From a virus, in the IMG/VR virus record IMGVR_UViG_3300042453_003033, positions 1 to 64,000 of that record: DNA of 64,000 nucleotides, one strand, 5' to 3'. Position numbers and translations under genes: made by a program. Shown piece by piece: positions 5,517 to 63,845 of the stretch. Positions within the stretch are counted from its first letter, which is position 1. Each line of letters starts with the position of its first letter. The notes beneath the pieces are model-generated. The model did no database searches. It was not told the origin of the DNA and saw nothing but the letters and a program-made list of their open reading frames with translations.

Positions 5517-5894
5517 ATGAGTGAAAATATTGAAGAAATCGTAGATACTGGTATTCCATTTCTGAATGCCATTACTACTCATTATGGAACAGAAACTGGA
5601 TTTGCTCTTTGGACCAAACTATGTGAGTCCATGCCTACAGAAGTTCGTGATGGAATTTTTCTGGCAATGTTGTCGGGGCAATCCCCACGAACTGTCCGTG
5701 TTAAAGGTTATTCTGGTAATAACAAAATTGAAAGAATTAAAGCGATTAGAACGGTGTCGGGTCTAGGGCTAAAAGAGGCCAAAGACCTGGATGATAATAT
5801 AGTTAATGGTCAAGCGTTTAATTTGACCTATAAGCCTCAATATTCTCGTCGCACTGTTTGTGACACACTAAAAATGACAGGTTATGTCCTATGA
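5517..5894 (+). CDS. Protein with ribosomal L7/L12 C-terminal-like domain
   Basis: 125 residues. Positions about 67-95 (NNKIERIKAIR...GLGLKEAKDL) match the ribosomal protein L7/L12 C-terminal domain, whose signature is K-x-x-x-IK-x-R-x-x-x-GLGLKEAKDLV. In the ribosome that domain recruits translational GTPases (EF-Tu, EF-G, IF2). The N-terminal 60 residues are not an L12 dimerisation domain and are unrecognised. The last 4 bp overlap the metallophosphoesterase (ATGA). A role in diverting host translation factors is inference; L12-like domains in phage proteins have been reported. Confidence 0.72.
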   Translation: MSENIEEIVDTGIPFLNAITTHYGTETGFALWTKLCESMPTEVRDGIFLAMLSGQSPRTVRVKGYSGNNKIERIKAIRTVSGLGLKEAKDLDDNIVNGQAFNLTYKPQYSRRTVCDTLKMTGYVL

Positions 5895-8165: not shown

Positions 8166-9016
8166 TGATGGCACAAAGAGTACATTATTGGAGTTGTAGC
8201 AGATTTGCGGACTGGGTTCGTGGTAAACCTAAAGCAGGCGCACTAACAAGTGAAGGCTGGCGTGATTGGCGTATTGAAGCCAAAACAGCACACCCAGTGC
8301 GTTATTGGATAGCTGAGGAAGCACTAGATAGAATTCAGAATTTTATCTGGTGGCCGTTAGATAAACTATACGATCTAAAGTACTATATCAACAATCGGTA
8401 CATTACTAAGACTCATTGTCTCACCTCTCATCCCAGGGACATCAAACCTGGACAGTGGTGTGATGTTGGTAATCGCTTTTTACCATGTTTATTCAATGAA
8501 CTAGTAGATTTTGTTGAAATTGAACAAGCATGGTGGAATATTGCCTGGGACAAAGAAGCAAGAGCAAAGTATGCTGCACCTTTTTGGTCTAGTGGTTGGT
8601 TTCGATGGAGAACTTGGCGCAGTCCAGAAGCAGGACTTGACAGTCTTAAATGGCAAAGCGAACTTGTTTGGAAAGAAGATGAAGTGGGCGAAAATACTGG
8701 CATGATAGGTAAGCCCACTTACCAGGCAGAAAAAGCCCAGGAAATCCTAGCACTATACAAGTGGTGGACCGAAGTTTATTCAAATCGTCCAGATGTACAT
8801 GATGCTAGTGGTTGGACTGAATACTGCAAGCGTAAACGTGAAATCAATGGTGACAAAGATTTAGATTTTTTCTGCGATGACAAGACACCGAAAGAACTGA
8901 AAGAATTTGGAGATTGTGCTCTTAAAAAGAGTCATGAAATCGAAGAAGCATATGAACGAGAAGATGAAGAAATGATGATTCGTCTTATAAAAATTCGTAA
9001 TTCACTTTGGACTTAA
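8165..9016 (+). CDS. Conserved Trp-rich phage protein
   Basis: 283 residues, unusually rich in Trp and Tyr. The N-terminus HYWSCSRFADWVRG plus HPVRYWIAEEALD resembles a phage protein family that recurs across unrelated phages but has no known function. The start at 8165 is chosen because it overlaps the upstream stop (TAATG) behind AAGGAA; the frame is open to 8138. A helical acidic tail (EEAYEREDEEMM) ends the protein. Confidence 0.78.
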   Translation: MMAQRVHYWSCSRFADWVRGKPKAGALTSEGWRDWRIEAKTAHPVRYWIAEEALDRIQNFIWWPLDKLYDLKYYINNRYITKTHCLTSHPRDIKPGQWCDVGNRFLPCLFNELVDFVEIEQAWWNIAWDKEARAKYAAPFWSSGWFRWRTWRSPEAGLDSLKWQSELVWKEDEVGENTGMIGKPTYQAEKAQEILALYKWWTEVYSNRPDVHDASGWTEYCKRKREINGDKDLDFFCDDKTPKELKEFGDCALKKSHEIEEAYEREDEEMMIRLIKIRNSLWT

Positions 9017-9025
9017 GGAAGTAAA

Positions 9026-9376
9026 ATGGCAGACTTTGTTATTCACACAGTATTATGGTTTGTATTTTTTTGGGTAGCGCACAAAATTATAGAAGGACAT
9101 ATTCAAACCAAAATTAAGGCAGAAAATGAACTTATTAAAGAAATAATGGATAAGACTCATATTGTAAAGGCAGAAAATCATGGCGAAATGATATATTGGT
9201 TTGAGGTTAATAACGATTCCTTCGTTGCTCAAGGCAAAAATATGTCAGAGTTGATTCAACATTGCAAACTAAGGTATCCGCCCACACATCATTTCTTAAT
9301 AATTGAAGGTGAAAAGGTAATTTTCAAAGTGTCAGCGCCAGATTGGATGCCTGTACCAGTGGATTTGAAAACTTGA
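9026..9376 (+). CDS. Membrane-anchored hypothetical protein
   Basis: 116 residues with one N-terminal membrane segment (VIHTVLWFVFFWVAHKII), a short charged helix, then a soluble domain of about 70 residues with predicted strands (YWFEVNNDSFVAQG). It probably sits in the inner membrane with the C-terminal domain in the cytoplasm. The C-terminal domain resembles small phage proteins in which a residue string like FVAQG is followed by a helix. Function unknown. The promoter at 9373 overlaps its last codons. Confidence 0.65.
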   Translation: MADFVIHTVLWFVFFWVAHKIIEGHIQTKIKAENELIKEIMDKTHIVKAENHGEMIYWFEVNNDSFVAQGKNMSELIQHCKLRYPPTHHFLIIEGEKVIFKVSAPDWMPVPVDLKT

Positions 9377-9401
9377 CAAAAAATGGCAAATACGTTATAC
9401 T
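9373..9401 (+). promoter_or_regulatory. Sigma70-like promoter
   Basis: TTGACA (9373-9378) and TATACT (9396-9401) with a 17-bp spacer. The -35 box overlaps the preceding stop codon. It would drive the following three genes, including IF-1 and superoxide dismutase, up to the terminator at 10632. Confidence 0.85.
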
Positions 9402-9429
9402 TACAACTTAGCTAACTGAGGTAAATTGC

Positions 9430-9810
9430 ATGAGTATGCATCTTGAAGGCGCCTGGCTGTCTACTACTGGCAAGCGCAAAGGCAAAATTAAATACAAGTC
9501 TGCTGAAGCAAAACGGCAGGCAGAACAATTGGCACGCGATTGGGAAACGCTTAAGAACAAGCATAAAAGCACTCCGACGATCACCAAGTCAGTATCTACA
9601 AAGAAACCCGTGAATGTCCCACGAGACAACACAGTATCTGAAACACGACCGCCTAGTCTTGGCAGCTGGATTACAGGGCCTGTTAGTAGCAAGCCCAGTC
9701 AACAATATACTGGTGATAAAGTTAAAGGTATTACCGTCATGCACAAGAGTTGCTTGCAGCCTGTGTTCTCCAATCAAGAGGCGATTGACGCCGCGCACAT
9801 GCGTCGATAA
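9430..9810 (+). CDS. Conserved phage hypothetical protein
   Basis: 126 residues. The N-terminal half is basic and helical (YKSAEAKRQAEQLARDWETL). After a disordered linker the C-terminus has KPSQQYTGDKVKGI and VMHKSCLQPVFSNQEA. This combination resembles a small-protein family I associate with diverse phages, without known function. It is the first gene after the promoter at 9373. Confidence 0.75.
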   Translation: MSMHLEGAWLSTTGKRKGKIKYKSAEAKRQAEQLARDWETLKNKHKSTPTITKSVSTKKPVNVPRDNTVSETRPPSLGSWITGPVSSKPSQQYTGDKVKGITVMHKSCLQPVFSNQEAIDAAHMRR

Positions 9811-9843
9811 AACATAAGAAAAGGATTCATTAAAAAGGAATAT

Positions 9844-10062
9844 ATGGCAAAAGAAGAAGGTATGAGAGTTAATGGCATTGTCGAACAAGTATTAGGCAAT
9901 GCTATGTTTAGAGTAAAATTAGAAAACAGCGATTTCTTGGTTACCGCCTATGTGGGTGGAAAACTTAGAAAGAATGAGATTAAAATTATCACGGGTGATC
10001 AAGTAGTTCTTGAGATGAGTCCATACGATACCACAAAAGCCAGAATCATGTATCGTGACTAA
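9844..10062 (+). CDS. infA: Translation initiation factor IF-1
   Basis: 72 residues, exactly the length of bacterial IF-1, and collinear with it. It has MAKEEG, GIVEQVLGNAMFRVKLENSD, the strand VTAYVGGKLRKNEIKIITGD (S1/OB-fold core with the KxRKNxIxIxxGD motif) and SPYDTTKARIMYR. IF-1 binds the 30S A site and helps IF2 and IF3 in initiation. A strong AAAAAGGAA precedes the start. It lies between a conserved phage gene and superoxide dismutase on the 9373 transcript. A phage copy may bias initiation toward phage messages; that is inference. Confidence 0.93.
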   Translation: MAKEEGMRVNGIVEQVLGNAMFRVKLENSDFLVTAYVGGKLRKNEIKIITGDQVVLEMSPYDTTKARIMYRD

Positions 10063-10070
10063 ATACATAC

Positions 10071-10622
10071 ATGTCCGAACATGTTAAAGAATTAATTCAG
10101 TTAGTTGAAAGTAGTGGCAAAGAACTTGTCTTAGAGAAGTTGCCATATAGTAGAACAGCACTATCTCCAGTTCTGGGTAAATCATCTATTGATTATCATT
10201 ATGGTGAACTAGCTAAGGGTTATGTAGAAAGATATAACAAAAAAGAAGGTGATCGTAAGTTTAACGAGGCTGGTGCCTTCTTACATAATATATTTTTCCC
10301 ACAGTTAATGCCACCAAAAAGTGGCAATAAGCCCAATGGAATCAGTTTATCTGTGATCAACAAAAAGTACGGAGATTTTGATAAGTTTAAAAAAGAATTG
10401 AAGCAAGAAGCCATGAAAATTCAGGGCTCTGGATGGATATATATGGCTAAGAACGGTGAAATAAAAACCATAACGAATCATCAAATAAAAAATGATATTG
10501 CACTGTTGATTGATTGGTGGGAGCATGCATGGGCAAAAGACTATGGTGCTAATAAGTCGAAATATCTCGATAACATATGGAAAATAATAAATTGGGATAA
10601 AGTAAACGCTAGAATGTATTAA
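10071..10622 (+). CDS. sod: Iron/manganese superoxide dismutase
   Basis: 183 residues, slightly shorter than usual (about 195-205). The Fe/Mn-SOD layout is clear: LPYSRTAL, DYHYG (ligand H43), AGAFLHNIFF (H72), GSGWIYM and IDWWEHAW (D148, H152), then DYGANKSKYLDNIWKIINW. It converts superoxide to peroxide and oxygen. Metal preference is not decidable by eye. It ends the 9373 transcript, with a terminator 10 bp downstream. Together with AhpD and Dps it suggests the phage manages reactive oxygen in its host. Confidence 0.9.
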   Translation: MSEHVKELIQLVESSGKELVLEKLPYSRTALSPVLGKSSIDYHYGELAKGYVERYNKKEGDRKFNEAGAFLHNIFFPQLMPPKSGNKPNGISLSVINKKYGDFDKFKKELKQEAMKIQGSGWIYMAKNGEIKTITNHQIKNDIALLIDWWEHAWAKDYGANKSKYLDNIWKIINWDKVNARMY

Positions 10623-10631
10623 AATCAAGAA

Positions 10632-10657
10632 TGGCAATTTTAGATTGCCATTTTTTT
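10632..10657 (+). terminator. Rho-independent terminator
   Basis: Perfect 7-bp stem TGGCAAT (10632-10638) / ATTGCCA (10644-10650) with a 5-nt loop and seven T residues at 10651-10657. It separates the superoxide dismutase transcript from the fibre genes. Confidence 0.92.
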
Positions 10658-10668
10658 CGTCTGCCATA

Positions 10669-10676
10669 GATAAATA
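10669..10676 (+). promoter_or_regulatory. Candidate late promoter box GATAAATA
   Basis: GATAAATA ends 20 bp before the ATG of the first fibre gene and follows a terminator. It resembles the T4 late -10 element TATAAATA, which needs no -35 box. The same box at the same distance occurs at 20819, 29171 and 30303. Confidence 0.6.
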
Positions 10677-10696
10677 AATAAAAACGAGTTTTATTT

Positions 10697-11464
10697 ATGG
10701 CAATATTTTCAAATGTTAATGTAGGTTCTGCACCCAATGACGGTACAGGAGATTCACTACGTACTAGTTTTACAAAAGTAAACGAAAATTTTCAGGACGT
10801 ATTGTCAATATGGCCTAATATAAGTCAAAATGAATTGACTGCCAATATTACTAGCACGTACATATCTTATTTTAACTTAATAGAAGCAGAAACATTAGAC
10901 AGTAATGTTTTAACATCTCCTAGTGGAAATATAAACGTATCTAGCACCAATGTTAACATTAGTGGTGGCAATTTAAATGTATCTGGAACTATTACTACTT
11001 CTGGTAATTTAAATGTTTCTACAGTCAATGGTAATATCGTAGGCACAACTGCTACTTTTAGCGGAAATATCAATGGAACATCTTCCAATTTAAAATCTAT
11101 CAATCATTTCATACGTAGTCCATCCGGTAACAGTATAGGCACAGCTATTAACGGCGGCGGTGATGCATATGAATTTGTAATCAATGAAACAGATTCTGTA
11201 GGTTCAACCGTTGCATTTAAAATCAATAATGCAACTAACGTCGCAGGCACACTAAATGCGACCATAACGTCAGGGATAGAAAGAACTTACATTATTTTTA
11301 ATCCTGGTCCAAGTACAAGTAATTTAATACTACCGTTTTATCCTAACAGAACCAATATTAATACTAATGTTGTGGCAATTTCTGGCAATACTACTGCTTT
11401 CATAATAGTTCGTGCGGTTAGCAATGACATTGGTAATGTATTTGCACAGGTAGCTAACATATAA
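10697..11464 (+). CDS. Virion fibre/adhesin-type protein
   Basis: 255 residues. The N-terminal motif NVGSAPNDGTGDSLRTSF followed by KVNENF is characteristic of phage structural proteins that trimerise at fibre bases. The middle is a low-complexity Ser/Asn/Thr repeat (VSSTNVNISGGNLNVSGT), typical of beta-helical shafts. The C-terminus is a small beta domain. The stop overlaps the next start (TAATG). Probably part of a tail fibre or baseplate appendage; exact position unknown. Confidence 0.75.
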   Translation: MAIFSNVNVGSAPNDGTGDSLRTSFTKVNENFQDVLSIWPNISQNELTANITSTYISYFNLIEAETLDSNVLTSPSGNINVSSTNVNISGGNLNVSGTITTSGNLNVSTVNGNIVGTTATFSGNINGTSSNLKSINHFIRSPSGNSIGTAINGGGDAYEFVINETDSVGSTVAFKINNATNVAGTLNATITSGIERTYIIFNPGPSTSNLILPFYPNRTNINTNVVAISGNTTAFIIVRAVSNDIGNVFAQVANI

Positions 11465-14073
11465 TGAGTATTCCAATTTGGCTTACACCAGCTGGTGATC
11501 TTGGCATAATCCCAGAAGAAGAATATTATGAATTTAACTTTGATTCGTATGTTGTCGGTGGTGGCACGCCAATTTATAGTTTAGTTGCGGGACGTTTGCC
11601 AAATGGTCTAGAAATAAAATCTGATGGAACAATGGCGGGTATGCCACTTGGAAGCATAGGTGGAGTACCTTCAGCGTCAAATAAAATTACAACAAGTACA
11701 TTTACTTTAAGAATTACTAGCCCATCACTTGAGGTAGCAGATCGAACATTTAGTCTTACAATCGCTGGAATATTACCACAGATAATTACTCCGGCTTCTG
11801 CAAATTTAGGTTCATATATCGATGGCACTTTTATATCAATAGATATCAACACGATTGAATCTAATTCATTTCTAACTTCAACGTTCAGTATTATTGATGG
11901 TGAATTACCTCCTGGAGTAACTTTAGATTCAACCACTGGTATAATATCTGGCTATATCAGACCTTTTATTTCAGATCAAACAGCAGCAAACACTGGTTAT
12001 GATAACAGTCAGTTTGATGAATATCTTTTTGATTTCACTGGCACCAGCACTAGTAAAAACTATCAATTTACAATTAAAGCAGATAACGGCATTACTGTAG
12101 ATACAAAAATATACACAATATATGTATTTGCATTATCAAGTATTACTGCCGATAGTACTTTAATTACCGCTGACTCTGACTCTTTGATCACTGCTGATTC
12201 TGCTGCACCAAAACATACACCCGTTATTTTAGATACTTCAGGATTAATAGGAAGAGTTCGTCAAGACACAAATGTAAACATCAAAATAAACGGTATTGAT
12301 TTTGATGATGATACTATAGATTATGCAATAGCTAGCGGTTCATTGCCGTCTGGACTAACTTTAAACACTGCTTCTGGTTGGATTTCTGGATTAGTTCCTA
12401 GTGGTTCATTAGGCACGGCAACTTATAATTTTTCAGTAGTAGTTTATAAACGCAATTATCCTATTTACGTTAGTTCGCCAAAATCATTTTCAATAAGAGT
12501 ATTAGGACAAATTAGTAACGACGTTGAATGGATAACTCCAGTTGATCTAGGCACAATTTTTGCAGGACAAGTATCAGAACTTTTTGTTGAGGCAGAAACA
12601 CAAAGTGGTAGATATTTAAATTATCGCCTAGATAATAGTTTTGGCACACTGCCACCTGGATTAAAACTACTAGATAATGGATTAATATCTGGTAGAATTA
12701 CTTTTGATACTTTCATGTTAGACAGTGGTACTACAACATTTGATAGTGGCACCACATTTTTTGATAGAGTTTATAACTTTACCGTTGCAGTATATGATGC
12801 AAATAACTTTGTTTATAGCACACGTACATTTACATTGACAGTCTTAGCGCCAATAATTGAACCATATGAAAATTTGTATATACAAATACTTCCAGATATT
12901 GATCAAAGAAATAGCTATAGTTCTTTAATTGACAATACCGATATTTTTCCACAAGATTATTTGTATAGATCAAATGATCCTTGGTTTGGTAAAAATACAA
13001 CCAGAAGAAGTTTATTCTTAGCCGGATTAAGGCCCAGAGAGGCAGCAATTTATGCTCAGTCAATGACGTTTAACCATTACTGGAAAACATTACGATTTGG
13101 AGATATCAAAACAGCAAGAGCAGTAGACAGTAATTTTAACACCAAATACGAAGTTGTTTATGCTGAAATTATCGATGAACAGGTAAATATTGAAGGTCTG
13201 GGACCTAATTTAGCAGTGTCACTTCCCACAAATAGTCAAAATATTACTACGATTTATCCAAATAGTTTTCCGAATATGGAACAACGAATAGTGTCAGGTG
13301 TAGGATATTCGAATAGAGGCGTATTACCAGACTGGATGACTAGTAGACAAGAAGATGGTACTGTTCTTGGATTTAAAAGAGTTTTAATTCTATGTTATAC
13401 TGTTCCAGGTAAAGGTAAAGAGGTAGCATATCGAGTTAAACAAAACATAAACTTATTAAATCGTGTTGATTTTACAATAGATCGTTATCTATGGGATAGT
13501 AGTATGAGTGCTAGCTATAACAAAGTGGCCAACACTTTTATATCTAACAACTTTGTTTTAGGCACAGGAACTATTAATGCAAACACAAACAGCAATATTA
13601 TTGTAGGCTTAACCTTGACGATTAACGGCGCAGGTACCATTAGCGCACCATTAGGAAATACTATCATAAATGGAACTGGTACTAGTTTTGCTACTGAATT
13701 AAGAGCAGGAAGAGCTTTATTTAGATCCGATACTGGAGAAGAATTAGGCGACATTTTACGAATTATAAATTCAGAAACTCTAATAATAGATACACCGTTG
13801 GCAAATACATTGTCCGCGGTATCGTACTCATCAATTTCCAGTAAAACCATATTTTCTAACGAAATATACGTTAATGACACAATAATAGTAAATACTAATG
13901 TCAAAGTCGGAACAGTAAAAAGTATAAACAGTGACTCAAATATTACTCTTTATACTAATGCTCTGGTTACCGTGTCGAATGTAAGTTTCCTACACAACTA
14001 CAGAGAACAATATAAAGAGCCAGGTGATGGAGATAAATACCTTAAGTATCCCCAAGTTGGAGTAATATCATAA
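11464..14073 (+). CDS. Large fibre protein with putative Ig (He_PIG) repeats
   Basis: 869 residues. At least four copies of the putative-Ig signature LPxGLxLxxxTGxIxG occur in the first 440 residues (LPNGLEIKSDGTMAG, LPPGVTLDSTTGIISG, LPSGLTLNTASGWISG, LPPGLKLLDNGLISG). These domains often mediate surface binding. The second half changes to a domain beginning near EPYENLYIQILPDIDQRNS, followed by a beta-rich C-terminal part. The stop overlaps the next start. Probably an elongated, receptor-binding or baseplate-associated virion protein. Confidence 0.78.
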   Translation: MSIPIWLTPAGDLGIIPEEEYYEFNFDSYVVGGGTPIYSLVAGRLPNGLEIKSDGTMAGMPLGSIGGVPSASNKITTSTFTLRITSPSLEVADRTFSLTIAGILPQIITPASANLGSYIDGTFISIDINTIESNSFLTSTFSIIDGELPPGVTLDSTTGIISGYIRPFISDQTAANTGYDNSQFDEYLFDFTGTSTSKNYQFTIKADNGITVDTKIYTIYVFALSSITADSTLITADSDSLITADSAAPKHTPVILDTSGLIGRVRQDTNVNIKINGIDFDDDTIDYAIASGSLPSGLTLNTASGWISGLVPSGSLGTATYNFSVVVYKRNYPIYVSSPKSFSIRVLGQISNDVEWITPVDLGTIFAGQVSELFVEAETQSGRYLNYRLDNSFGTLPPGLKLLDNGLISGRITFDTFMLDSGTTTFDSGTTFFDRVYNFTVAVYDANNFVYSTRTFTLTVLAPIIEPYENLYIQILPDIDQRNSYSSLIDNTDIFPQDYLYRSNDPWFGKNTTRRSLFLAGLRPREAAIYAQSMTFNHYWKTLRFGDIKTARAVDSNFNTKYEVVYAEIIDEQVNIEGLGPNLAVSLPTNSQNITTIYPNSFPNMEQRIVSGVGYSNRGVLPDWMTSRQEDGTVLGFKRVLILCYTVPGKGKEVAYRVKQNINLLNRVDFTIDRYLWDSSMSASYNKVANTFISNNFVLGTGTINANTNSNIIVGLTLTINGAGTISAPLGNTIINGTGTSFATELRAGRALFRSDTGEELGDILRIINSETLIIDTPLANTLSAVSYSSISSKTIFSNEIYVNDTIIVNTNVKVGTVKSINSDSNITLYTNALVTVSNVSFLHNYREQYKEPGDGDKYLKYPQVGVIS

Positions 14074-40300: not shown

Positions 40301-41389
40301 GGCCTAAGACAGACTGGCGAAATTAATTGGCAAACAATTCATCATGTTAATAAAAATGTAGCAAGACAACCCGTAAGAGAAAATTTTGAATTTAGTCCTG
40401 AACAAGAAAAATGGCTAGGGAACGCAAATCGTCAAGATCCATACATAATAGCCAGAATGCCTGGACCTAAGCCACCAGCCGAATATTTTACAAACCCAGA
40501 AGATCAACGTGTTGCACAACAAATAGTTAGATCACAAGATTTAGCAAACAAATGGCAAGAATTTAGACAAGGTGGTTCACTGGCAAGCAAAGCAGTTAGT
40601 AGAATACCAGGTGTAAGTCAAGCAGCAAACGTTGTAGATATCGGAGCAAATCTAGCTAAAGGTGATTTGCCTGCCGCTGGTAGACAAGCGTTAGGCATGA
40701 TACCTGCCGCTAGACCAATTAATTTAGCATTACAAGCAGGTGATGTCGCAAGTAATCTTCAACAAGGTAATTTAGCTGCCGGAGCAAAAGGTGCATTAGG
40801 TATTGCAGCAGGTACCGGAAGTGAAACAGCTGGTCGAGCACTTAAAGGATGGAATTTATTTAATAGACTACAAAAAACTACACAGTCATTAGCTGACAAG
40901 CAAAATCAACCAACAATGGAAAACACTTGCCCACATTGCGGTGGTTTATCAGTAGATGATGAAATGTTAGCTGAGAAGAAAGATGCTTGCTATCACAAGG
41001 TTAAAAGTAGATATAAAGTATGGCCCAGCGCATATGCCAGTGGTGCTTTAGTAAAATGTCGTAAAAAAGGCGCTAAAAACTGGGGTAAATCAAAAGCCAA
41101 TGAAGATAGCAATCTATACTTCAATATATCAGGCACCGACAAGAAAACTTTAATATCCGAGTTTAAACTAAATCGCAATAATAAAGGATGGTATTTAAAA
41201 GAAGATTCACCATCATCTGTTAAACTAGATGCAATACGCGCATTTGGTATGCCTTTAAGCGAAGAAGAATTAAACCCAACGGCATATAGCGGCACTGCTG
41301 CAACAATAGGTGTAGATAATCCTAGAAGTCCAGTTGGTTCGGTTCCAAAAAGCCAAAGAATAAATAGTAAACAAAAGGGTAAAAAATAA
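37328..41389 (+). CDS. Giant LysM / lysozyme-like virion protein
   Basis: 1353 residues. N-terminal basic Cys-containing motif (KWVRFGPDGKIRGDCARGDD). A LysM domain (YTLRRGDTLSQLASKFD, about 378-425). Tandem repeats of 27 and 16 residues. A lysozyme/transglycosylase-like domain (about 700-960) with STAEASKNPNLAYGDAI, NAVGAYQFVGDTL and YMAHAVGG. Then a peptidoglycan-binding-like helix pair (EIRKYQKSNGLRQTGEINW), WLGNANRQDPYIIARM, a hydrophobic segment, and a CPHCGG / ACYHKVKSRYKVWPSAYASG tail. Probably a tail-associated cell-wall hydrolase; catalytic residues not proven. Confidence 0.75.
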   Translation: MNLYDFFSNNKKLNIKENIPTANEVEKQVVNENLHKWFKEKWVRFGPDGKIRGDCARGDDSEGKPKCLPRAKAHSLGKKGRASAAARKRREDPNPERSGSAINVATKSKRKIDEQTGKAASIKSESIKSLAEQIGPRGETVRLPPTPADANFERYLSTLPKASDPASAQSQPQRRGTMPRVGTDFYYVPGAAPNARSQAAAVASPVSSPQIVGSTGAGARAARAADSAAAARVTPPINQPPRRVSPPKVDTDSYSVQDGNIKPDARHQARIASQAIQRDTEAQKQAAREKEYAASVDSADAELGTAIKANAQAAREKEYATSSDQEDTDLATAMNKMAADLAKTASTDDQLAAAANVATGGYSGGRGQPTTVSTPTSYTLRRGDTLSQLASKFDTTTQELMRLNPDIKDPNKIYAGMTLNVSKPTDAATGQTIAPDQSSAETQRLDRQPVKIRTATGQTIAPDQSSAETQRLDRQPVKIRTATGQTIAPDQSSAETQRLDRQPVKIMPGTVGTSSGQLTTLDGTPWFTGYPPEQEIPVSPPSIRPGEKRADRAGGSADLAGDIGRGEFSAAGKPSVRPDRVVPPSSAGSASSTQTGSGLRLPSQSGSGLRLPPAQTGAAKPPAAEPTSPPKPGAAKPPAAEPTTPVKPGATKPPAAEPTTPVKPGTTKPPAAEPTTPVKPGATTDDQAKLRQNLTPGQLKYAGDADLSRPATGTNRVIEKMPLPDSDRIVKAFSTAEASKNPNLAYGDAIDKNGNIVSTVRANRGIKIGRRLLTAEQWSEKELGQAKKLSNMTISEVQQFQKYREANHKNANAVGAYQFVGDTLDNLVKKLGLDPKTTIFNQKTQNLLLSELTKDNANTLKRNGILPDIVNIYMAHAVGGRGAVGIYDDLRKDSNKTVIDSIMDTWEQNNPRDAGNPRKVAMQRKILLAGNPHMTDMRIGEYYDYLKNATEGKTRNSAYTQRSNAAQQSLGLRDESGRPNEQEIRKYQKSNGLRQTGEINWQTIHHVNKNVARQPVRENFEFSPEQEKWLGNANRQDPYIIARMPGPKPPAEYFTNPEDQRVAQQIVRSQDLANKWQEFRQGGSLASKAVSRIPGVSQAANVVDIGANLAKGDLPAAGRQALGMIPAARPINLALQAGDVASNLQQGNLAAGAKGALGIAAGTGSETAGRALKGWNLFNRLQKTTQSLADKQNQPTMENTCPHCGGLSVDDEMLAEKKDACYHKVKSRYKVWPSAYASGALVKCRKKGAKNWGKSKANEDSNLYFNISGTDKKTLISEFKLNRNNKGWYLKEDSPSSVKLDAIRAFGMPLSEEELNPTAYSGTAATIGVDNPRSPVGSVPKSQRINSKQKGKK
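38609..38845 (+). repeat. 81-bp tandem repeat, 2.9 copies
   Basis: Starts at 38609, 38690 and 38771, period 81 bp (27 residues), encoding ATGQTIAPDQSSAETQRLDR then QPVKIRT. The copies differ at about one base (acggga versus actgga). Located between the LysM domain and the Pro-rich repeats. Confidence 0.95.
39179..39370 (+). repeat. 48-bp tandem repeat, four copies
   Basis: Copies at 39179, 39227, 39275 and 39323 encode AAKPPAAEPTTPVKPG with few changes (first copy SPPKPG). It is a Pro/Ala-rich extended linker. An upstream 24-residue-scale repeat of SGSGLRLP occurs at about 39112-39160. Confidence 0.93.
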
Positions 41390-41823
41390 TGGACGAATTA
41401 GCAAAAGCACTGAAAATAGCATTCAGTACCGAATTTAGTTTTTATCTAAAATCTCATTACTACCATTGGAATGTAGAAGGTCCAAACTTCGCACAATATC
41501 ATAAATTGTTCAGTAAAATATATGAAGAAGTTTATGGTAGTATTGATGCATTTGCTGAAAATATAAGAAAATTAGGCAGTTACACTCCTGGTAGCTATAC
41601 AAGACTAAGTATGCTATCTCAGATAGAGGACGAACTGACCGTTCCTCCAGCACTTGATATGATCAATGATTTATTAGGTGATAGTGAAAAATGCATTAAA
41701 ATTTTCAAAATGGTATATGATTTAGCCGAACGTGAAGGCGAACATGGATTAAGTAATTTTCTAGCAGAACGCATGGATTCACATAAAAAACACAGCTGGA
41801 TGCTCAGCGCAACACTCAAATGA
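41389..41823 (+). CDS. dps: Dps-family ferritin-like protein
   Basis: 144 residues. The Dps ferroxidase pattern is intact: YYHWNVEGPNF (H26), QYHKLF (H38), then SIDAFAENIRKLG (D53, E57). Dps dodecamers oxidise and store iron and can bind DNA, limiting hydroxyl-radical damage. A TAATG overlap joins it to the giant LysM protein, so it may be expressed late and even packaged. It completes the SOD/AhpD/Dps oxidative-stress set. Confidence 0.9.
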   Translation: MDELAKALKIAFSTEFSFYLKSHYYHWNVEGPNFAQYHKLFSKIYEEVYGSIDAFAENIRKLGSYTPGSYTRLSMLSQIEDELTVPPALDMINDLLGDSEKCIKIFKMVYDLAEREGEHGLSNFLAERMDSHKKHSWMLSATLK

Positions 41824-61521: not shown

Positions 61522-62583
61522 TCATGTCGCTTTAATCCTTATGTAATCCTTATAGTATTCTTTATAGTCTTGCTCTGATTTAATTTTTACGCCCGTTGTT
61601 AAGTTTTTGATAATTTCTGAATTAGCTTCTAACATTGGAGCTTTAGTAATCATCACATCAGTAACACAAAAACATTTTCTCTGAACGCAGATTTCACCCG
61701 CTGTTGGCAATTCATTTTTTTCATGATCGTCTATGTGAAACAGATGCCCTCCCTGGCCGCAATTACCCTTTTTAACATAACCGTCAAAACCTATATACAA
61801 ACTTTCTAGTCCTATATTACACGCCCAACCTCTAAAATCATTTTGACCACTAGTAATTAAATAATTACCATTGGCGTTTTTATCTACTGAACCATCACTA
61901 TAATGAAAACTAGAACCTATTTTTTCTTGCCTAAAAAGTGGCGCCTTTGTACTGTCTATTGCTATTTTTCGGTTGACGCCCATTTGATTTTTAAACAACC
62001 ACTCAATATTTTCTGGAGTATAATCATCGCCTATATGTCTATTCGCTATTTCTGGTAGTATTCTAACTGGCTCTGTTCGTATTTCTGAAATTTTAGAACA
62101 CTCTTCATAAAAATGTAATGATTTATCCCAGTATCTACTATCCATCATAACCCTGATTACCACGTGAGTATGTTTAGCGGATTCTAATGCCTTCTCGATT
62201 AGTTGAGGATCATGACTACCCGGGTGATAACTAAAACAAATATAACTTAGTTTAGGTGCCACTGACTTCCAGTAATCTATAGTTCTGACACCGTTAGTAG
62301 TAATACCTACAGTATGACCACTGTCATACAGCATATTAACTATTTCAGGAAAAAATGGACTTACGGTAGGTTCTCCACCACTAATACTACAGTGTATTTT
62401 TTCATAGTGCCCACTTAATCGTTGAATGAAATCTTTCGCACGTTCGATATTATAATTATGATTAGTTCCGTTATGTAGTATAGGCGGACAATAATCACAA
62501 TGATTTGTGCAAATATTATTGATAACCCACGTTAGTCGTAGAATGTTATCATGTTGTCTGATCCTTATTACACGTTTATTCAT
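61522..62583 (-). CDS. Radical SAM protein with SPASM-like C-terminus
   Basis: 353 residues. The radical SAM cluster motif CxxxCxxC is NNICTNHCDYCPP; a GGEP motif (SISGGEPTVS) follows for SAM binding. The C-terminal Cys set (WACNIGLESLYIG, KKGNCGQGG, CVQRKCFC) fits an auxiliary-cluster SPASM/twitch domain. Such enzymes modify peptides or small molecules by radical chemistry. It overlaps the upstream gene in the same direction by ATGA. The substrate is unknown. Confidence 0.85.
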   Translation of the reverse strand: MNKRVIRIRQHDNILRLTWVINNICTNHCDYCPPILHNGTNHNYNIERAKDFIQRLSGHYEKIHCSISGGEPTVSPFFPEIVNMLYDSGHTVGITTNGVRTIDYWKSVAPKLSYICFSYHPGSHDPQLIEKALESAKHTHVVIRVMMDSRYWDKSLHFYEECSKISEIRTEPVRILPEIANRHIGDDYTPENIEWLFKNQMGVNRKIAIDSTKAPLFRQEKIGSSFHYSDGSVDKNANGNYLITSGQNDFRGWACNIGLESLYIGFDGYVKKGNCGQGGHLFHIDDHEKNELPTAGEICVQRKCFCVTDVMITKAPMLEANSEIIKNLTTGVKIKSEQDYKEYYKDYIRIKAT

Positions 62584-63845
62584 GTGTGTTTCTTTAATAG
62601 TTCATAATATTCTGAATATAGTTTACTGAATTTATATGATCTGATACTATCTAACCCATCAATATAATCAAGTAAGGCACTATATTTATTGCTATCATCG
62701 TCAGCTAACATATATTCAAGTTGACTGGATATCCTAGTTCGCCACTTTTCATTAGATTGTAATTCTGGGAAAGAATTCCATCGCTCAACTATTGCCTGTT
62801 TTACCGGTGTCGGTAATACTCTAGTAGACATATACTGCGGCCAATGTGTTGTTCCAACAGAAAAAAGATCACCATTATTTCTACAGATTTTTTTCCAATT
62901 ACGATTTAATATCTCACTAGCGAATTCAGGCAAAGTATAAATATTCATAGCATGAACGGTTGTTAAGATGTTGACTACAATAGTAGACGATGTTTCGTCA
63001 AGCCTGTCTAGATTTTTAACAATATCATTCCAGTCAGAAGGATATCTGATATAGTCATTTCGCTGACCCCAATCGTCTATACTCAGTAATAACTCCACTT
63101 GTTTGAATTGACTCCATAATTCAATAAACTTCTCACTCAACACAGTAGCATTAGTATGATATCTCAATTCAATATTTTTTGAGTGACCTGTTTCTACAAG
63201 TTTAGTAATAAATCGTTCGTGATTTTTAATCAACAAAGGTTCACCACCACCAAAGATGATGTGCCTTATATCACCCATAAACTCGTCAAGAGCCTGTTGT
63301 GTTTCTAAACGTTCGAACCAATCAAAACAATCAGTGTTAGTTATACTGATTGATTTGAATTTCCAATCATTTTTTGCCTCTGGCGAGGTAAGAATGTCTG
63401 CTAAGCGTCGGCTATCTGATAGCCACTTACTACTATCTCTGGGTCTACACATTACACATTGTAGATTACACGTATTACCTATTCTCAGATCAAGAGTAAT
63501 AGGATTATAATTTACACTACCGTCAGGATTTGTGCTAGCTATTAAATTTTCTAGATAGTCAGTACCTAACTTTTTTTGCCACATGAAATTTTCAATCATT
63601 CTGTGACTTTTCATGCCAGCGTCTTCTTCTTTCCAACAACTTCTACATTGAGGTAGTTTTTGTCCAGCAAGAAATTCAAGTCTAGCTTTTTTAAATGGCT
63701 CACTATTCCATACTTTTTCTGGTGTTAAACTGTTTAAATTAATGCCTTGTTCTGGCATAGCTATACAACACAACGGAACTTTACCGTCATTCCAACTAGC
63801 AAGATGTATCCATGGCAAAATACAAAAATTTTGTTTTTCAATCAT
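62580..63845 (-). CDS. Twitch-domain radical SAM protein
   Basis: 421 residues. An N-terminal Cys set (FCILPWIHLASW; VPLCCIAM; LPQCRSCWKEED) is an auxiliary-cluster (twitch-like) region. It is followed by LRIGNTCNLQCVMCRPRDSS, the CxxxCxxC radical SAM motif, and IIFGGGEPLL for SAM. LLLSIDDWGQRNDYIRYP is conserved among these proteins. An overlapping ATGA joins it to the partial upstream gene and to the second radical SAM gene, so the two enzymes are made together. Confidence 0.85.
   Translation of the reverse strand: MIEKQNFCILPWIHLASWNDGKVPLCCIAMPEQGINLNSLTPEKVWNSEPFKKARLEFLAGQKLPQCRSCWKEEDAGMKSHRMIENFMWQKKLGTDYLENLIASTNPDGSVNYNPITLDLRIGNTCNLQCVMCRPRDSSKWLSDSRRLADILTSPEAKNDWKFKSISITNTDCFDWFERLETQQALDEFMGDIRHIIFGGGEPLLIKNHERFITKLVETGHSKNIELRYHTNATVLSEKFIELWSQFKQVELLLSIDDWGQRNDYIRYPSDWNDIVKNLDRLDETSSTIVVNILTTVHAMNIYTLPEFASEILNRNWKKICRNNGDLFSVGTTHWPQYMSTRVLPTPVKQAIVERWNSFPELQSNEKWRTRISSQLEYMLADDDSNKYSALLDYIDGLDSIRSYKFSKLYSEYYELLKKHT

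Follow-up and report, generated by a model that had tools for sequence, protein, structure and literature searches.

A bacterial-type translation initiation factor IF-1 gene followed by a superoxide dismutase gene in a viral record related to jumbo phages

What does a gene for a bacterial initiation factor do in a virus, and does its neighbourhood offer any clue? IF-1 is among the less studied translation genes of large phages. The window analysed here, i.e. the first 64,000 nucleotides of the 68,468-base IMG/VR virus record IMGVR_UViG_3300042453_003033, carries such a gene as part of a short run of genes on one strand (Table 1). The identity of the product, the origin of the gene and the meaning of the superoxide dismutase (SOD) gene behind it are taken up in turn below.

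Table 1. Positions of the IF-1 gene and the elements around it in the window
Feature	Coordinates	Strand	Basis
Sigma-70 type promoter, TTGACA-17-TATACT (11 of 12)	9373..9401	+	sequence; kept in relatives
Gene of unknown function that opens the unit, 126 aa, phrog_27048	9430..9810	+	ORF; PHROGs
Ribosome-binding site of IF-1, AAGGA	9835..9839	+	from sequence; ATG four bases 3' of AAGGA
IF-1, 72 aa	9844..10062	+	ORF with ATG start, 72 codons; Pfam, NCBIfam, PDB and AF2 matches
Fe/Mn superoxide dismutase, 183 aa; gap of 8 bases to IF-1	10071..10622	+	Pfam
Terminator-like hairpin followed by a U run, end of the unit	10627..10660	+	-13.2 kcal/mol, z -3.87

The IF-1 gene and the record that carries it

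The preliminary description had reported an intact, full-length 72-residue IF-1, and this is borne out. The coordinates given for the ORF are exact, and the protein scores 86 bits against the NCBIfam infA equivalog TIGR00008 (cut-off 61.15; model positions 1-68 of 69) and 67.2 bits against Pfam eIF-1a (cut-off 30.2). A PDB search matches it to E. coli IF1 (E 7.8e-20), and its AF2 model (pLDDT 86) has an OB fold whose best structural match is 9fco_I, the E. coli IF1 of a 30S-IF1-IF3 complex (TMq 0.93, rmsd 0.9 Å). Judged by sequence and modelled fold, the product is a true bacterial-type IF-1, encoded in a phage. PHROGs assigns it to family 30201, whose listing as unknown function is an annotation gap. 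The nearest phage IF-1 has 92% amino-acid identity, with a dN of 0.06 and a dS above 4; the coding sequences compared indicate that the gene is under purifying selection, and since the codon-based dS is saturated, no dN/dS ratio is claimed. Furthermore, K3, G11, F22, G39, R42, I46, G51, D52, Y61, D62, R67 and R71 are fixed in all 41 phage IF-1s that are linked to a SOD gene (see below). R42, R67 and R71 (window numbering), which belong to the conserved basic side chains on the RNA-binding face of IF-1, are arginine in these 41 and in 73/73 bacteria among the matches listed.

Could the gene nevertheless be bacterial contamination or the result of a misassembly? Such cases exist among records filed as phage: the IF-1 locus of MT835508 (L010) lies in a ribosomal protein operon of a bacterial chromosome, and in Acinetobacter phage MD-2021a (L004) infA is adjoined by the bacterial genes truA and leuB. 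The window differs from both in that its gene order is identical in two viral contigs (68 and 123 kb) and that its record holds a phage DNA polymerase. The two contigs carry the same region with about 74% DNA identity around IF-1 and an IF-1 that is 92% identical, and they are mutually identical over the 12 kb compared. Synteny with other viral contigs contradicts bacterial contamination of the window, and we consider an origin of this gene outside the phage extremely improbable.

The DNA polymerase is T4-like, and its nearest counterparts are those of the jumbo phages Phosso (469 kb; 45%) and Atu_ph07 (490 kb; 41%). Hence the connection to very large phages drawn in the preliminary description holds to the extent that the phage resembles, by its DNA polymerase, a relative of such phages. 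The 68,468-base record probably represents part of a larger genome. The accompanying claim that phages rarely carry IF-1 does not stand: a pattern scan of viral contigs yields at least 597 confirmed relatives, and IF1 is already present in the huge-phage literature (PMC7162821). The novelty of a phage IF-1 by itself is low, since such genes are known and not rare.

Several other genes of the record were observed along the way. A Dps or ferritin-like protein, i.e. an iron/oxidative-stress gene, is encoded at 41389-41823 (E 1.9e-10, below the equivalog cut-off). Radical SAM proteins, one of them a twitch-domain radical SAM (361 bits), lie on the minus strand at 61522-63845, near the end of the record, and a further ORF in the tail of the record (L264, 43-1329) resembles radical SAM proteins by eye. 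A 1334-aa protein gives an RMF-like Pfam match (E 4e-4) that, with 20.7 bits, is below the cut-off of 27.9.

Phage IF-1s apart from bacterial IF-1s

A phylogeny of the protein against host IF-1 had been proposed; in a rapid tree built from 155 IF-1s (72 columns), 74 phage sequences group together and separate from 73 bacteria (SH-aLRT 86, not starred). This group includes all 41 SOD-linked IF-1s as well as that of Phosso, while eight phage rows fall outside it: two Lak rows, LR756511, LR756508, Bacteroides phage DAC19 and three viral contigs. To build the tree, seven bacterial rows whose IF-1 tail was identical were merged (80 to 73). Both the tree and the neighbour maps left out L001 and L002, as duplicates of the window and L003, and nine loci taken for bacterial, of which L004 and L010 were called by gene content and L011, L013, L014, L057, L087, L089 and L090 by GC, contig-end position or record name. 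Given the few columns and a bacterial set that is mostly Pseudomonadota among the matches listed, the separation of phage from bacterial IF-1s is weakly resolved and suggestive only. In identity, the best bacterial IF-1 among the matches listed reaches 59%, versus the 92% of the nearest phage.

The two sets also differ in individual residues. Among the bacterial matches listed, position 8 is E in 63/73, position 36 is H in 70/73 (and Y in 3/73) and position 45 is R or Y in 68/73; the 41 SOD-linked phage IF-1s have R or K at position 8 in 36 cases, H at position 36 in only one, and N, D or E at position 45 in 39. T. thermophilus IF-1 has Y at position 36. Positions 8, 36 and 45 may be regarded as candidates for altered 30S binding. 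As a separate observation, a 101-aa 'hypothetical protein' of Bacteroides phage DAC19 (L006, 627-932) is an IF-1 that carries some 30 extra residues at its N-terminus.

The superoxide dismutase neighbour

The gene directly behind IF-1, which, like the first gene of the unit and the hairpin, is absent from the preliminary description, exceeds the cut-offs of both Pfam SOD domains (Sod_Fe_C, 80.4 bits versus 20.9; Sod_Fe_N, 34.4 bits versus 27). By contrast, the NCBIfam SodA/SodB equivalogs give at best 81.9 bits against a cut-off of 348. On these profile scores the product is a SOD-family protein but not orthologous to SodA or SodB. When it is aligned to solved SODs, H43, H72, D148 and H152 are the four metal ligands, whose positions (three His, one Asp) we took from E. 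coli SodB, and all four are invariant in 41/41. Since both domains are over cut-off and the ligand positions are invariant, the protein is likely to be an active SOD.

The pair recurs. Across all loci collected, IF-1 followed by SOD on the same strand is found for 41 distinct viral IF-1s, that of the window among them; by called starts, the two genes are within 34 bases of each other or overlap in 35 of these, and are separated by 121 to 1516 bases in the other six. Querying with IF-1, a SOD neighbour is present in 21 and absent in 40 of 61 distinct IF-1s, so that the pairing is not required for having IF-1; querying with SOD, IF-1 lies upstream of 24 of 56 distinct SODs. No SOD was found beside infA at 80 bacterial loci among the matches listed (flanks of up to 4 kb a side, shorter at contig ends). 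We further examined 36 records selected by IF-1, namely the window, L003 and 34 of 80 viral-scan loci among the matches listed, which were chosen after the gene maps had been seen. A SOD occurs anywhere in 20 of them and lies within 1.6 kb of IF-1 in 18 of these 20, where 0.9 are expected under random placement; in the two exceptions, the genes are 8 and 11 kb apart.

Does this proximity reflect a joint function, or chance or hitch-hiking kept by common descent only? As the 41 loci share ancestry, they are not 41 independent events. All paired IF-1s form one single-linkage group at 60% identity, and 32/56 distinct SODs have no IF-1 nearby. IF-1 and SOD distances are correlated (r 0.68, 0/2000 permutations), as is expected of a unit inherited together. 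Set against a purely genealogical explanation, the pair is kept between IF-1s down to 42% identity while the flanking genes vary, and in Vibrio phage 2.275.O a SOD of the same kind comes three to five genes behind IF-3, S21 and L7/L12-like genes, a second translation context. We therefore regard common descent alone as possible but doubtful.

Of 82 representative IF-1 loci, 31 have an A-type Fe-S carrier gene no more than 1.5 kb 3' of IF-1, 24 with SOD and seven without, and the carrier from L020 passes the ErpA model (164 bits, cut-off 117); the window has no such carrier between SOD and the next gene. SODs of this kind are also present in isolated jumbo phages, namely the PA5oct group and Vibrio phage 2.275.O, and in Pseudomonas phage Callisto the SOD is found among clpX, ibpB, clpS and ftsH. 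Phage SODs that have no IF-1 (L136, L151, L155, L168 and similar loci) often lie 3' of genes belonging to the UvdE (UV endonuclease) cluster and the PTPS cluster, and are then followed by ErpA-like or IscU-cluster genes. One 117,666-base viral record holds two IF-1/SOD copies (L100 and L101) with the same scores and in opposite orientation, towards both ends; this duplicate is a terminal repeat or an assembly artefact.

Transcription and proposed role of the pair

The preliminary description had put IF-1 on a sigma70-driven transcript. A near-consensus promoter is indeed present and conserved, but it is sited upstream of the preceding gene, so that IF-1 would be the second cistron. The plain number of promoter matches in 8900-11600 is not above that of shuffles (15 versus 11.1, sd 3.7), and the promoter is credible only because it is conserved in relatives: a match of 11 to 12 out of 12 occurs within 260 bases around the start of the first gene in 21 of the 37 IF-1 loci that have this gene (1/300 shuffles). 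Of 114 representative loci, 37 have the first gene, and each of these 37 is an IF-1 locus; the AF2 model of its product (pLDDT 67) is too poor for structure search. No terminator-like hairpin occurs between IF-1 and SOD in any of the 41 loci, and the hairpin after the unit is present in two of them only, the window and its closest relative, L003. The known biology of T4-like phages is the basis for linking host-type promoters with early transcription, and by this analogy the strong host-type promoter suggests early transcription by the host polymerase.

Taken together, we favour with moderate confidence the explanation that a working IF-1 of a phage lineage, expressed early from a host-polymerase promoter, supports or biases initiation while the SOD protects. 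Host RNA polymerase would transcribe the unit of first gene, IF-1 and SOD early in infection. The phage IF-1 would then bind the A-site side of host 30S subunits, which is the simplest expectation because the conserved basic residues are kept, and would supplement or partly replace the host IF-1, so that initiation stays fast or is shifted in favour of phage mRNAs. The SOD expressed along with it would shield the metalloenzymes and translation capacity of the infected cell from superoxide, and in relatives the ErpA-type Fe-S carrier would presumably join it in this protection.

The changed residues invite another interpretation, in which the phage IF-1 has been retuned, competes with the host IF-1 and shifts start-site choice, instead of being a plain supplement. 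Positions 8, 36 and 45, near-fixed in bacteria, are altered in the 41 SOD-linked IF-1s, and an L7/L12-like gene is also present in the window's record. However, part of these differences may reflect sampling, as Pseudomonadota make up most of the bacterial set and Y occurs at position 36 in some other bacteria; we deem retuning unlikely. The L7/L12-like ORF (5517-5894) contains an L7/L12 C-terminal domain (Pfam 31.6 bits, over cut-off; NCBIfam 31.9 bits, under cut-off) and adds another gene related to translation 4 kb upstream of IF-1. In general, L7/L12 genes do not accompany IF-1, being found in 4/44 records at E 0.001, three of them over cut-off.

RNA chaperone or antiterminator activity is a property of E. 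coli IF1 and of further small proteins with an OB fold, and a small RNA-binding protein with an OB fold in an early-type phage unit might act mainly in this way on phage transcripts. Nevertheless, the ribosome-factor signature is kept, R42, R67 and R71 included, and nothing points to a non-ribosomal role, which leaves this alternative quite improbable. For the role of IF-1, the order of likelihood is dose supplementation, then start-site retuning, then RNA chaperoning.

Returning to the favoured explanation, a bolder extension would join all parts: in large T4-like environmental phages, a conserved early cassette in which an altered, lineage-specific IF-1 redirects host 30S subunits while co-translated SOD and Fe-S carrier keep redox and Fe-S enzymes working, making takeover and oxidative protection one regulated unit. 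We offer this extension only speculatively and hold it to be rather unlikely as a whole. What merits following is the recurrence of IF-1 together with SOD behind a promoter that relatives share. A phage IF-1 that has a close recurrent partner constitutes a testable cassette, which predicts early co-expression and an oxidative-stress phenotype. Phage IF-1s are, moreover, natural variants for probing the effect of IF-1 on start-site choice. If the pair shares descent only, it is still a lineage marker for environmental phages and explains PHROG 30201.

Among known systems, huge phages encode IF1 and IF3 along with S1, S4, S21 and L7/L12 (Al-Shayeb 2020, PMC7162821), Lak phages encode IF-1 (PMC6784885), IF-1A is a conserved gene of Jug phages (PMC12363816), and IF-3 occurs in jumbo phages (PMC7824862; PMC11242549). 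Huge, Lak and Jug phages resemble the window in that IF-1 occurs in a very large or jumbo-related phage; unlike in the window, a SOD partner goes unmentioned in the relevant passages of these papers (PMC7162821, PMC6784885, PMC12363816), and the 2-kb flanks of the Lak and LR756511 IF-1 loci contain no SOD. In the open-access literature, we found no published description of a phage IF-1 and SOD pair, and the portions consulted of PMC12619734, PMC13157829, PMC13282480, PMC9405923 and PMC10747093 hold nothing that bears on it.

Bacterial IF-1 (infA, TIGR00008) shares with the window's protein its length, fold, conserved core residues and above-cut-off family score, but differs in having no downstream SOD in 80 loci among the matches listed and in the near-fixed residues that are changed in phage. 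The IF-1 of Sinorhizobium phage Phosso (PV764938) belongs to the same 74-row phage group, and its DNA polymerase is the closest found (45%); its IF-1, however, is 48% identical to the window's and neighbours a MutT-like gene and opposite-strand genes, with no SOD. Finally, the main text of a study on marine T4-like phages (PMC5332604) contains neither 'superoxide' nor 'initiation factor'; in the parts consulted, these phages carry Fe-S carrier (ATC) and IscU genes, just as the window's relatives often have an ErpA-like carrier directly 3' of SOD.
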